Part shown: one piece after another, positions 15,124 through 20,997 of the stretch
Layout of the letters: each line of letters starts with the position of its first letter
How positions within the stretch are numbered: position 1 is the first letter of the stretch
NCBI RefSeq assembly: GCF_000024905.1
Contig: NC_013522.1
Location: 1,178,001 to 1,242,000 of the forward strand
Reading direction: 5' to 3'
Source of the DNA: Thermanaerovibrio acidaminovorans DSM 6589
Lineage (GTDB): Bacteria; Synergistota; Synergistia; Synergistales; Synergistaceae
DNA length: 64,000 nucleotides
The notes under the pieces: model-generated
The model's input: the letters and a program-made list of their open reading frames with translations, nothing else
Database searches by the model: none
Told to the model about the DNA's origin: nothing
Position numbers and translations under genes: made by a program

Positions 15124-16656
15124 TTAGGACTTCCGAAGGGAGGCCAGGGCCTCCTCCAGCGCCTCCAGGATGAAGGCCTTCACCTCTTCCTTGGTGACGG
15201 ATACCCCATGGGACACCGGGGACGGGGGCTCGATCACGAAGGAGGCCCCATCGGACAGGTTGGTCATCCTGGCCAGGAAGAGGCTCCCCTTGCCTATTAT
15301 CATGGCCCGCTTGATCCTGCCCTCCAGGATCCAGTCCCTGGCAGGACCCACGAAGGGGACCCCGGAGGGGATGTGTCCCTGGGTGTGGGCGAAGCCGGGT
15401 ATGCCCCGCTCCACCACGAAGTCGTTCATCTTGGCCTTCTCGATCTGCCCCTTCATGGCCGCCAGGGCGGCTATCATCTTGAAGTTGGCGTTCGCCGGAT
15501 CCCCCGCGCCGGCGGGGAGGGTTATCTCCGGGATGTGAAGCTCCGCCGCGTACTTGTCCACGTCCAGGAACCCAAGTCCCAGCTTGGCCAGGGGCTCGTA
15601 AACCAAGGCGGTGGTCACCGCCTGGGGAGAGGCGCCGGCGCCAACCGAATGCTTGCCCAGCGCGTCCAGCCTCATCACCGGATTGCGGCCGTCCTCGGGG
15701 CCCAGCAGGATGGCGAAGTTCCCCAGACAGTCCTCCAGGGGGGGAACCCCCTTCTTGAGATGGTCCCGGCTGTTCATGTAGAGCTTGGGTACCGCACCCC
15801 CCGCCAAGACCACCACGTTCCTCCGGGCGGAGGCGGCCACCATGGAGCCCCCCACGATCATGGCGTTAACCGGGCCGGCGCAGAAACCCCGGACGTCGCA
15901 TCCGCTGGCGTTGACGCAGCCGCATATCTCCGCCACCGCCTTGGCGAAGTTGCCCCCGCCCCGCTGGTTCATGTCCCCGCAGGCCTCCTCGGAGCACTCC
16001 ACCACGAAGTCAACCTCCTCGGGGGAAAGCCCCGTGTTGTTGAGCAGGTGCAGAAGGGCCAGCACGCCCCCCGCCTTGCAGGCTATGTTCTCCAACAGCA
16101 CGTAGGCGGAGAGGCACTCGTCTATCTCGTGCCCCTTGCGGCAACAACCCACAAGCCGGTCCCCCAGGTACAGGGGCAGGGCCCCCTTGGTCAGCTCCCC
16201 CTGGATCTCCTCCAACGGATGCCCCGTCTCCAGGCGGTTGAGCAGGTGGTCCTTCATCAGCGGGTGGGAGGACAGCTTCCCCCTCACCTCCGCGGCGAAG
16301 CCTGCCTCCAGGAGGATCAGGTCGAACACGTCACAGATGTCCATGAGGCCGATGAACTCGTCCTCGGGCATTATCTCCCCGTACCGGCCGAAACGATTGG
16401 CCTCCCGGACCGGGTTGTCGTACCAGGGCTTAGGGTGCCCCTCCAGCCCGCACAGGTCCATGGCCCCCACGTAGGCCTGGTTGGGGGCGTAGGAACAGGC
16501 GAAGGCATGGTCCCTCATGGCCCCCTTTAGGTCCCGGAGGAAGTCGGTCTCGCCGGAGCCCTCCCTCTCGACCCAAGGGGTGTTTCCGTAGTGGTAAGCC
16601 AGGTTAGGGACATGGTTAAGACAGTAGGCCGTCCCAAGTATCGCGCAGTTAGCCAT
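15124..16656 (-). CDS. grdC: glycine reductase complex component C, subunit beta (GrdC)
   Basis: Partner of GrdD in protein C of glycine, sarcosine and betaine reductases. The protein resembles ketoacyl-ACP synthase III-type folds and is 510 aa, the usual length. It begins MANCAILGTAYCLNHVPNLA, with the conserved N-terminal hydrophobic strand and multiple cysteines. I chose the ATG placed 7-9 bases after AGGAGGGGG; a TTG two codons upstream is the alternative. It lies about 110 bases downstream of grdB and 15 bases upstream of grdD. Confidence 0.95.
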   Translation of the reverse strand: MANCAILGTAYCLNHVPNLAYHYGNTPWVEREGSGETDFLRDLKGAMRDHAFACSYAPNQAYVGAMDLCGLEGHPKPWYDNPVREANRFGRYGEIMPEDEFIGLMDICDVFDLILLEAGFAAEVRGKLSSHPLMKDHLLNRLETGHPLEEIQGELTKGALPLYLGDRLVGCCRKGHEIDECLSAYVLLENIACKAGGVLALLHLLNNTGLSPEEVDFVVECSEEACGDMNQRGGGNFAKAVAEICGCVNASGCDVRGFCAGPVNAMIVGGSMVAASARRNVVVLAGGAVPKLYMNSRDHLKKGVPPLEDCLGNFAILLGPEDGRNPVMRLDALGKHSVGAGASPQAVTTALVYEPLAKLGLGFLDVDKYAAELHIPEITLPAGAGDPANANFKMIAALAAMKGQIEKAKMNDFVVERGIPGFAHTQGHIPSGVPFVGPARDWILEGRIKRAMIIGKGSLFLARMTNLSDGASFVIEPPSPVSHGVSVTKEEVKAFILEALEEALASLRKS

Positions 16657-16764
16657 CTTCAAGCCCCCTCCTTTGAGGGATTTTTATCTTTCAACCCAGA
16701 GGGTCCAAAATGGCGGCCCCATCGGTCCTGGTGAGGGACCCCAGGGGCCGCCGGGATGGTGCGC

Positions 16765-18075
16765 CTAGTTGTTGGCGAACACCGTCTGGTCGCTAACCTC
16801 GGTCTGAAGGGCCCTCAAGGCCGCCTCCACCAGGCGCCTCCTGATGGCCACCTCCTCCTCGTGGGTCTTGGTGGGATCCCCTAGCGGGTGCGGTATGGCC
16901 ACCGCCGGGACGATCCTGTTGGCCCCCACGGTCAGGGAGATGGGTACTATGGTGCACACGTGCACCACCGGAATGCCAGCCCGCTCTATCTCCTTCACCA
17001 TCGTTGCGCCGCAACGAGTGCAGGTACCTCAGGTGGAGGTGAGGATCACCGCGTCAACCCCGTCCTTCTTGAGCTTGGAGGCGATCTCCTGGCCGAAGCG
17101 CTTGGCGTTGGCCACCGGGGTCCCGTTGCCCACGGTGGTGTAGAAGTAGGGGTAGAGCCTCTTGAAGACCCCCTGGGACTCCATCTGGCGTAGCACATCC
17201 ACCGGCAGGACCCGGTTGGGGTCCGAGTTGGCGTAGGTGGGGTCGTACCCCCCGTGGGCGGTGGCGTAGCCCTCGGCGGTGACGCTCGAGACCCCCTCGA
17301 TGGAGTACTCCCCGTACTTGGTGGCGCTGGAGGCCTCTATGTGGTCCGGGTTCCCCTTGGGTACTATGCCTCCGGAGGTCACCAAGGCTATGGTGGCGTT
17401 CTTCAGGTCCTTGATGGCCGCCGCGGGGGGCACCCGATCGAAAACCGGCATGGGGTACTCGGTGGTGTACTGCTCCCCCTTGAGCTTCCGGACCAGCATC
17501 TCCACCGCCCGCTCAGCCCCCACCTCATCCCGGAAGAGGTTCACCCGGATGCCCCGCTCGATGTAGCCCTCCTCCTCCGGGGAGCCAAGTGGCTCCCCCT
17601 TGAGGAGCTTGAGCACTATCCGGGCCATGGCAGGCACCGCGTCCTTTATGCCCCGGGCGTTGTCCGAGGTCCTCACGATGGGGAAGCTCTTCCGGTACAT
17701 CTCCACCCCCGGGTTCTCCGGGTACATGCCCCCCACCACGGGGATCCCAAGGCGCTTTGCCACCGCCTCCCCAACGGCGCCGCAGGCGGTCCCGTATCGG
17801 CCCGCGTTGAACGCGGGACCCAGGACCACCCCGTCGGGGGAGAAGGACTTTATCATCTCAAGGATCTGGTCGGTGGCCTCGTCCATGTGCTCCGCAAAGT
17901 AACCGTCGCCACATATGACGGTGCCCACCACCTCCGCCTCGGAGCCCAGGGCGGCCTTGAGGGCCGCACCGGGCCCCACCGGTCCGTCCTTCTTGACCGG
18001 CGTTATGTCCGCCTTGTCCTCTCCCCCCAGGCCGCCGAAGAACTGGTTAAGGTAATGAACTATCCTGTAGGCCAT
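16765..18075 (-). CDS. grdB: glycine reductase component B, selenoprotein subunit (GrdB), with selenocysteine 349
   Basis: Substrate-binding protein B subunit; its selenocysteine attacks the glycine Schiff base formed on the GrdE pyruvoyl group. The reading frame crosses an in-frame UGA at 17029-17031 (codon 349). The context is ILTSTU followed by GTCTRCGATMVKEIERAG, which is the known GrdB selenocysteine site. Full length is 436 aa; stopping at the UGA would lose 88 C-terminal residues. A 7-bp hairpin begins 11 bases after the UGA (see separate entry). The ATG start has a GGAGGGAT site. It follows grdA by 31 bases. Confidence 0.96.
17001..17031 (-). promoter_or_regulatory. UGA selenocysteine codon and SECIS-like hairpin in grdB
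   Basis: After the UGA and 11 bases, the minus strand reads TCGTTGC, loop GGC, GCAACGA: a perfect 7-bp stem with a G-rich loop about 18 bases from the UGA. This is within the spacing known for bacterial SECIS elements read by SelB. It lies inside the grdB coding sequence. Confidence 0.75.
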
Positions 18076-18106: not shown

Positions 18107-18583
18107 CTAGAGGGTGTACTGGCTGTGGGCCTCCCTCATCTTCCGGACCGCCTCGGTCAAGGCCTCCGGATCCAGCACCATCTCCATCATGCTGACCTGC
18201 TCCTCCCACTGAGCAGGGTCCGCCTCGGACTTGATCTCCGGGTCGAATATGTGATAGACCGGGAGTCCCAACGAGACTCCCGCCAATGGACCCGCGTAGG
18301 TGGGGTCGCCGGCGGTGACGGTCTCCGCGTAGATCTCGGCCCCCTCCGCATCGGAGGAACCCAAGACAACTACCACGTTCTCCGCACCGAACTTCTCGGC
18401 GATGTCCTTCACCCTCTGCTGATTCTGCAGGTCCATGGCTCCAGCGGCGGTTCAGACGAAGCACTCGGTGACCGCGAAGGCTATCTCCGCCCCGCAGTCC
18501 TTGAGGCACGCCTCCATGGCGGGCCCGGGCACCCCGTCCCGCTCACCCAAAAGGATGAGCTTCTTTCCGGCCAGCTTTCCCAT
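18107..18583 (-). CDS. grdA: glycine reductase selenoprotein A (GrdA), with selenocysteine 44
   Basis: Small acidic selenoprotein that receives the carboxymethyl group from protein B and passes it to protein C; thioredoxin reduces it afterwards. The in-frame UGA at 18452-18454 is codon 44, in the redox motif C41-F-V-U44 (TECFVU then TAAGAMDLQNQQ), exactly the GrdA selenocysteine site. Full length is 158 aa from the ATG preceded by GGAGG; reading from the later ATG at 18436 would miss the active site. It is between grdE and grdB in the operon. Confidence 0.97.
18416..18454 (-). promoter_or_regulatory. UGA selenocysteine codon and possible SECIS hairpin in grdA
   Basis: The UGA is followed after 21 bases by CTGC, loop AGAATCA, GCAG, a short 4-bp stem in the right distance range for a bacterial SECIS. 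The stem is weaker than the one in grdB, and other foldings are possible. The UGA decoding itself is supported by the conserved GrdA context. Confidence 0.5.
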
Positions 18584-18666: not shown

Positions 18667-19959
18667 CTAGTATGTGGTGGCGCTGAGCCGGTTAAAGCCC
18701 AGCTCGCAGGTGGCCCCGGTTATGGCCTGGAGCTCCACCTCGATGGACCCGTCCTCCCGAAGGGAGCCGGCGAAGCCTCCGGCTATCACGTCCACGTACT
18801 CGGTGAACCCGATGACCCGGTCCATGGGGGGTAGCACGATCATGGCGTTGGCGTTGCCGGCGGTGACCACCGCGTCCGCCTCCTTGGCGGCGTCCGCCAG
18901 GGACTGGCTGGCCCCGTCCCGGCCTGCGTACTCGTCGGTTATGAGCACCGTCCGGATGCCCAACGTCTCCGCCTTGCGGCAGTTCATGATCAGGTCCGTG
19001 TCCGGGTTGCCGAAGCCCTCCTCGCTTATCACCAGCCCATCCACCCCCAGCATGGCGGCCAGCTTGGTGGCGTAGGAGGAGCTGCGCTTCTTGTCCGCCA
19101 GGGTCACGTTCTCGTTGGTGATGATGCACCCGACGAAGTTAAGATCCACCCCGTGACGATCGTAGAGGGCCTGGATCACCGGGTTGTTGAGGTGAACGTA
19201 GGTGCTGTTCTTGTCGCAGGCGGACACGCAGTTGCCCGACACGATGGCCCCGTCCATCACCTCGTTGGGATGGATCAGGGTGGGGATGATCCGCTTGGCG
19301 TCAACCCCGTAGACGTAGGTATCGTGCAGGAGTCCCTGAGTCTGGAGCATGTAGAGGTAGGCCACCTTGGGAAGCCCCGGGTGGGCCGACATGGCCTCCC
19401 GGAGGGGTGGCAACTGGAAGGACCTCACCTGATCCGCCTTGGCGGAAGCCTCCTTGGCCTTGGTGGCCAGGAAGTGGGCCGCCTTCAATCCCGCGATCCG
19501 GCAGGCGCTCTCGTACTCGTGCTTCTCCAGTCCCTCCGCGGGCTCGAAGACCAAAACCACGTTGAAGGTCTTGGAGAAGGGGGTGTAGTCCGCCCCGGGG
19601 CCGGACATGTCCACTATGCCCTCCTGGAAGCCCACGATCCTTCCGCAGGTGACCACCGCGGCACCCTTGAGCACCAGCGTGGCACCGCTACCCACGGTCT
19701 CCACATCGCCGACGAAACCAGGGAAGACCTCCCCGGGCCCCTCCAGCTTGCAGCGAGGCTCCACCACGTCCTTGACGGGGGTTATGCGAACCCTCTCCCC
19801 CGGACGGGCCAGGTCCACGTCCACCGACTTGAGCCGCTCATCGCCCCCCAGGTGGGCCACCAGCTCCTCCTTGGAGACGTACAGGGTGCCGTCCCTGAAA
19901 GCGGTGGTCTCCCCCCACTCGAGGGCCTTGACGTGAAACTCGTGCAGTTCCAGCCTCAT
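18667..19959 (-). CDS. grdE: glycine reductase component B proprotein (GrdE), pyruvoyl precursor
   Basis: Precursor of the two small subunits of protein B. The family is known to cleave itself at an Asn-Cys bond, turning the cysteine into the pyruvoyl group that binds glycine as a Schiff base. The expected site is N243-C244 in AIVSGNCVSACDKN. The two products would be about 243 and 187 residues. Total length 430 aa matches GrdE. The ATG start has GGGAGGG upstream. It lies between trxA and grdA in the order usual for grd operons. Confidence 0.95.
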   Translation of the reverse strand: MRLELHEFHVKALEWGETTAFRDGTLYVSKEELVAHLGGDERLKSVDVDLARPGERVRITPVKDVVEPRCKLEGPGEVFPGFVGDVETVGSGATLVLKGAAVVTCGRIVGFQEGIVDMSGPGADYTPFSKTFNVVLVFEPAEGLEKHEYESACRIAGLKAAHFLATKAKEASAKADQVRSFQLPPLREAMSAHPGLPKVAYLYMLQTQGLLHDTYVYGVDAKRIIPTLIHPNEVMDGAIVSGNCVSACDKNSTYVHLNNPVIQALYDRHGVDLNFVGCIITNENVTLADKKRSSSYATKLAAMLGVDGLVISEEGFGNPDTDLIMNCRKAETLGIRTVLITDEYAGRDGASQSLADAAKEADAVVTAGNANAMIVLPPMDRVIGFTEYVDVIAGGFAGSLREDGSIEVELQAITGATCELGFNRLSATTY

Positions 19960-20004: not shown

Positions 20005-20325
20005 TCAGCCTATCAGCTTGTTGGCCCTATCCCTTATGGCCTCCAAGGTGACCTCCGCGCCGGTTATCCGGTCCACCAGCTCCCCCCCCTTGTAGAAGAG
20101 GAAGGTGGGGAGCCCCATGACCTTGAGGCTGGCGCAGAGGCGCCGGTTCTCCGCCGCGTTCAGCTTGCAGAACTTGACCTTCCCCTCGAACTCCTCCCCC
20201 ATCTTCACCACCTCGGGCATGAGGGCCAGGCAAGGACCGCAGGAGGGACCCCAGAAGTCCACTACCACCGGGAGGGAGCTCTGCAACACCTCCGCCTCGT
20301 AGTTGTCCTTGTTGACCTCCACCAT
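20005..20325 (-). CDS. trxA: thioredoxin, glycine-reductase-linked, with SCGPC active site
   Basis: Dithiol electron donor, most likely the reductant of GrdA in the glycine reductase cycle. The 106-aa thioredoxin fold has the redox pair C29/C32 in DFWGPSCGPCLAL and the cis-proline strand GLPTFLFYKGG. The residue before the first cysteine is Ser instead of the usual Trp, an altered active site. The ATG chosen follows GGGAGGTGAT by 5-8 bases. It is directly between grdX and grdE; no thioredoxin reductase gene is present in the window, so it must be encoded elsewhere. Confidence 0.94.
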   Translation of the reverse strand: MVEVNKDNYEAEVLQSSLPVVVDFWGPSCGPCLALMPEVVKMGEEFEGKVKFCKLNAAENRRLCASLKVMGLPTFLFYKGGELVDRITGAEVTLEAIRDRANKLIG

Positions 20326-20370: not shown

Positions 20371-20739
20371 CTATAGGCCGTAGGCGTCCAACGTGTTCTC
20401 TATGAGCTTCAGATCCACGTAGGCCAGATCCTGATGAAACGGGAAACGGGACGGCTCCGGGAGGTCCATGAAGGGACGATAGACCTCCAGGGCCTCCTCC
20501 ATGAGGAGGATCGATTGGTAGTCAACCCCAACCCCCGGCCCATCCAACAGGACGGTCCTGAAGGGCTGATGATGGGGACGAAGGTTTCCGTAGAGCGGGT
20601 GGGACAGGAGACGATAGCCCCGGTGCACCCGGTCTCGGGCCGCGAGGAGAACCTCCCCGCCATGACCCTCCACTCAGAGGGCGCGGGGCACTCTACGGAT
20701 CACCAGGGGATTGTTGGTTACGCAGATGGGCGAACGCAA
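20371..20739 (-). CDS. grdX: GrdX-family protein with an in-frame UGA at codon 22
   Basis: GrdX is a small protein of unknown role that heads many glycine/sarcosine/betaine reductase operons. Family features are VTNNPLV near the N-terminus and RDRVHRGYRLLSHPLYGNLRP with PFRTVLL in the middle. The frame that contains both halves runs 122 codons from a TTG with GAGGGGGG 6 bases upstream. It is interrupted by UGA at 20674-20676. Possible readings are selenocysteine, a nonsense mutation or a sequence error. Otherwise translation could restart at the GTG right after the UGA, giving 100 aa without the conserved NNP segment and without a good ribosome-binding site. Confidence 0.75.
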
Positions 20740-20744
20740 AGGAG

Positions 20745-20958
20745 ACCCCCCTCGCCAAGGACTCTCCTCTGGCTTCTACCCATCGGGGATTCGCCTGCGG
20801 GGTCAACCCGCCGCTTGCCCCAGGGCCGGCCCGAACGGATCGGACCATCTACAGAGGGCCGTCACGCCGCAATCCTTTGGCCTGAGAGATTCGGCTCTCG
20901 CCTTGCCCCTTCGGCGTCCCGATCCCCGGACCGGGAGCTCTCTTGCGACGGTCATCCA
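20745..20958 (-). ncRNA. glycine riboswitch, probably tandem, in the grd operon leader
   Basis: The minus strand carries hallmark glycine-aptamer sequences: GCAAGAGAGCTCC, then CGCCGAAGGGGCAAGGC, then AATCTCTCAGGCCAAAGGA, closed by GCAA/TTGC and CCGTC/GACGG pairing (about 20855-20957). A second, less canonical unit follows (about 20757-20850): CTCTG, CTGGGGCAAGCGG, CCGATGGGTAGAAG and CAGAG. The leader starts 10-15 bases after the promoter and ends at the grdX ribosome-binding site. Known glycine riboswitches often turn on glycine-catabolic genes, so glycine likely activates this operon. The aptamer 1 call is strong; aptamer 2 is moderate. Confidence 0.88.
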
Positions 20959-20969
20959 ACCTAACCTAA

Positions 20970-20997
20970 ATTTTACGCCCCCCCGACGGGAGGTCAA
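20970..20997 (-). promoter_or_regulatory. promoter of the glycine reductase operon
   Basis: The minus strand has TTGACC (complement of 20992-20997), a 16-base spacer and TAAAAT (complement of 20970-20975). Transcription would start near 20963, just before the glycine aptamer. The -35 lies inside the loop of a GC-rich inverted repeat (20976-21005). Confidence 0.75.

Follow-up and report, generated by a model that had tools for sequence, protein, structure and literature searches.

An in-frame UGA followed by a candidate SECIS predicts that GrdX of the glycine reductase operon is a selenoprotein

The grdX gene of Thermanaerovibrio acidaminovorans contains an in-frame UGA that, by strong inference from sequence, is read as selenocysteine (Sec), which makes GrdX, an uncharacterized protein of the glycine reductase operon, a predicted new selenoprotein. 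In-frame UGA codons recur in grdX in three separate lineages of the phylum Synergistota, and each is followed by a candidate for the RNA hairpin (bacterial SECIS) that directs selenocysteine insertion. In the absence of protein data, we assign this reading a probability of about 0.86. An initial annotation had noted that the two conserved halves of GrdX lie in one frame, split only by a UGA at codon 22, and had offered four possibilities: a new selenoprotein, a recoded control point, a nonsense mutation, or a sequence error. The observation is correct, and the first of these possibilities is strongly supported.

We examined a 64,000-nucleotide stretch of the genome (here called the window). 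On the minus strand, the frame at 20371-20739 starts at TTG after a Shine-Dalgarno-like GAGGGGGG stretch, reads LRSPICVTNNPLVIRRVPRAL up to the UGA and VEGHGGEVLLAARDRVHRGYRLLSHPLYGN after it, and ends in DAYGL and a TAG stop. Read through, this frame matches the GrdX profile NF038093 over profile positions 1-119 of 119 (109.6 bits, cut-off 40), while the part after the UGA alone covers positions 22-119 (92.5 bits). The gene follows a glycine riboswitch and leads trxA, grdE, grdA, grdB, grdC, and grdD. The features of the locus are as follows.

20970-20997, minus strand: promoter-like TTGACC-16-TAAAAT (10 of 12 matches) just upstream of the glycine riboswitch.
20860-20955, minus strand: glycine riboswitch aptamer (Rfam RF00504, 67.1 bits), also found upstream of grdX in UGA-bearing loci of all three lineages.
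20746-20753, minus strand: Shine-Dalgarno-like GAGGGGGG, 6 nt before the TTG start of grdX; a G-rich stretch is also present before the start in relatives.
20371-20739, minus strand: grdX, with a TTG start, an in-frame UGA at codon 22, and a TAG stop; predicted 122-aa selenoprotein.
20674-20676, minus strand: UGA, predicted selenocysteine codon.
20642-20660, minus strand: predicted bacterial SECIS, with arms at 20653-20660 and 20642-20649 and the loop GUU at 20650-20652.
20005-20325, minus strand: trxA-like gene, next in the operon, with no in-frame UGA.
18667-19959, minus strand: grdE, with no in-frame UGA.
18107-18583, minus strand: grdA, encoding selenoprotein A, with its UGA at 18452-18454 (read-through translation ECFVUTAAGA).
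16991-17031, minus strand: the grdB UGA (17029-17031) and its SECIS_4 element (Rfam RF01990, 59.3 bits, match at 16991-17028).

To determine whether the UGA is conserved, we searched 188 genomes of the phylum and found GrdX in 126; a first scan of genome contigs with the window's protein had found nothing. Thirteen of the listed matches contain an in-frame TGA, and none contains TAA or TAG. These are the three species of the window's genus (codon 22), four genomes of a second Synergistota family, which we call f2 (codon 20), and six of a third, f10 (codon 15). In the alignment, the three sites fall in columns 33, 32, and 14; the first two are one residue apart and may be the same site shifted by small indels, while the third is clearly different. 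A GrdX tree places the three groups in three well-supported clades and requires three gains. In contrast, 77 Synergistota homologues that we retrieved lack the UGA, and among more than 200 clostridial GrdX, drawn from a class-wide sample and from an order rich in GrdX, the listed matches contain no in-frame TGA and a single TAA, in what is probably a decaying copy (genome G213, contig C189, positions 16545-16859). A UGA found in one Eubacteriales locus lies upstream of the Met start and is an ordinary stop.

We next asked whether these codons are accompanied by a SECIS. The initial annotation had drawn a short hairpin after the UGA (GAGG, loop TTCT, CCTC) and had noted that its loop lacks the usual G. 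However, the favored fold uses another register, an 8-bp stem, GCGGGGAG/CUCCUCGC, with the loop GUU starting 21 nt after the UGA and an upper hairpin of -11.8 kcal/mol, and the loop therefore does have the expected leading G. This fold meets the published bacterial SECIS rules, including a loop that begins G[G/U] (PMC13188914). The two congeners have the loops GUC and GUG on the same stem, family f2 has a 9-bp stem (8 bp in one genome) with the loop GGG at 19 nt, and family f10 has a 9-bp stem with the loop GUU at 24 nt. Thus, every one of the 13 UGAs has a candidate SECIS after it; in 12 the hairpin meets the rules as one uninterrupted 8-9 bp stem with a 3-nt GUN or GGG loop at 19-24 nt, while in one f10 genome the stem has a mismatch. 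The grdB SECIS of the same mRNA has the same design, with an uninterrupted 7-bp upper stem and a 3-nt loop, GGC, 18 nt after the UGA. The grdA UGA, however, has no strong hairpin in the 50 nt after it (18405-18454, minus strand; z +1.2), and how SelB recognizes it is not obvious.

These hairpins are more than chance would provide. When we applied the same rules to all other TGA triplets in the same loci, hairpins at least as stable as each group's median occurred at 1.3% for the window's genus and at 0.8% and 0.3% for the two other lineages, and at most 1 of 77 UGA-free homologues passed at each equivalent site. Codons under the hairpins are identical in 15 of 23 conserved-residue positions, compared to 45 of 185 elsewhere (p = 1.3e-4), and UGA-free control groups show no such general excess. 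Tests of free energy against synonymous recodings are weak when taken singly (z -1.4, fraction 0.085, in the window, and -0.2 to -2.7 in the others), so the case rests on recurrence. Rfam SECIS families do not match the grdX hairpin even at E 10, as expected for sequence-diverse bacterial SECIS elements, and MAFFT alignment of the bare hairpins of the three groups failed because the sequences are unrelated, so no pair-covariation test across groups was possible.

Within the genus, nonsynonymous change is far below synonymous change both before and after the UGA (dN about 0.07-0.25 against dS of 0.6 or more). The genes trxA and grdE in the same loci carry no internal UGA, which rules out UGA reassignment. 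The genome has tRNA-Sec (82.8 bits) and SelB (339.7 bits), and all 13 UGA-bearing genomes have SelB over the cut-off, although SelB is common among GrdX genomes, and its presence is a necessary condition rather than strong evidence. The operon order (glycine riboswitch-grdX-trxA-grdE-grdA-grdB) is also shared. Other genera of the window's family differ in layout, with grdX-grdE-grdB and neither trxA nor grdA next to them, and in many loci a second Synergistota GrdX subgroup sits directly downstream of grdB rather than at the operon head; none of this subgroup has a UGA.

Given these results, our best explanation is that ribosomes start at the TTG and reach the UGA at codon 22, where SelB with Sec-tRNA(Sec), recruited by the hairpin just downstream, inserts selenocysteine, so that the full 122-residue GrdX is made. 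Without Sec-tRNA, ribosomes would stop after 21 residues, and GrdX would therefore depend on selenium like GrdA and GrdB of the same mRNA. We found no earlier naming of GrdX as a selenoprotein in the papers we could search, which did not include supplements or subscription papers; none of those mentioning GrdX is, by title, a selenoprotein survey, and the 2026 prokaryotic selenoproteome review is not among them.

What the Sec does is open. The Sec of GrdA and GrdB is a known functional residue at a fixed site, whereas GrdX has no known activity and its Sec occurs at two or three sites in a minority of lineages. Synergistota GrdX without UGA is rich in Cys in the beta1-alpha1-beta2 segment (the first ~35 columns), where all the Sec codons fall (78 of 1818 residues, 4.3%, against 98 of 8029, 1.2%, in the rest), while clostridial GrdX is not (15 of 2051 against 64 of 7970). 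Most UGA-containing GrdX, including the window's, carry a Cys in the first strand just before the invariant NN, and a confident AlphaFold model (pLDDT 95.3) puts the window's Sec in a short second strand. This suggests a thiol/selenol pair, and a thiol/selenol redox or sensing role is our first guess. At the f10 site, 13 of 77 UGA-free Synergistota homologues have Cys. At the site of the window's genus, however, UGA-free homologues mostly have F, L, or Y and only one has Cys, so the usual Sec/Cys exchange is not seen there; ordinary residues with neither UGA nor Cys are found only in relatives more distant than the two congeners, and the sister lineage has no Cys in that column, although it has one two residues away. 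This, together with the shift of the site between lineages, argues against a fixed catalytic role. A structure search with the model found no PDB match with E <= 0.001, and a sequence search found none of note, so the predicted fold is possibly undescribed.

Alternatively, it is possible, although we give this a low probability, that the UGA is mainly a selenium-status control point, a reading that adds a function to Sec decoding rather than replacing it. Under this hypothesis, ribosomes pass the early UGA only when Sec-tRNA is available; when selenium is scarce they terminate at codon 15-22, polarity lowers expression of grdE, grdA, and grdB, and the identity and exact site of the inserted residue matter little. 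In its favor, there were three independent gains in the same gene, always within the first 15-22 codons of the riboswitch-led first gene, at two or three different residues and mostly without Cys at the aligned column in relatives. However, many Synergistota with the same riboswitch-grdX-trxA-grdE layout do without a UGA, the part of GrdX after the UGA stays under purifying selection, no intrinsic terminator was found in or just after grdX, no attenuator was found, and the Cys-rich N-terminal segment fits a chemical role. The control-point hypothesis is neither shown nor excluded.

It is unlikely that the UGA is instead read by a near-cognate tRNA (for example, Trp) without SelB. Aromatic and aliphatic residues dominate at the column of the window's genus in relatives, and sequence alone cannot name the inserted residue, but a SECIS-type hairpin with a G-first loop lies at the right spacing in three lineages, only UGA is used, and two established Sec codons lie on the same mRNA. 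We also considered whether GrdX is made in two pieces, a 21-aa peptide followed by reinitiation, since in the window a GTG directly follows the UGA and the downstream part alone is called as an ORF of 100 aa. We reject this reading, given that the adjacent GTG is GTT in both congeners, restart codons differ between species, and none occurs within 30 codons in four f10 genomes. Finally, a nonsense mutation, pseudogene, or sequencing error, which would be the default for a single in-frame stop, is rejected by the conserved UGA and hairpin in three lineages, by purifying selection, and by the quality of the genome, which is one contig of 1,848,474 bp, the size reported for T. acidaminovorans Su883T, a finished genome with a stated error rate below 1 in 100,000 (PMC3035242).

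Gene callers that treat UGA as a stop would truncate or miss these grdX genes. The finding adds a third, predicted selenoprotein to the glycine reductase operon and gives the first biochemical handle on GrdX, a widely conserved protein without known function or solved fold. It is also an unusual case of Sec gained three times in one protein family at different nearby positions, and it makes testable the question of whether Sec is always gained for its chemistry or whether a Sec codon can be gained as a selenium-dependent switch.
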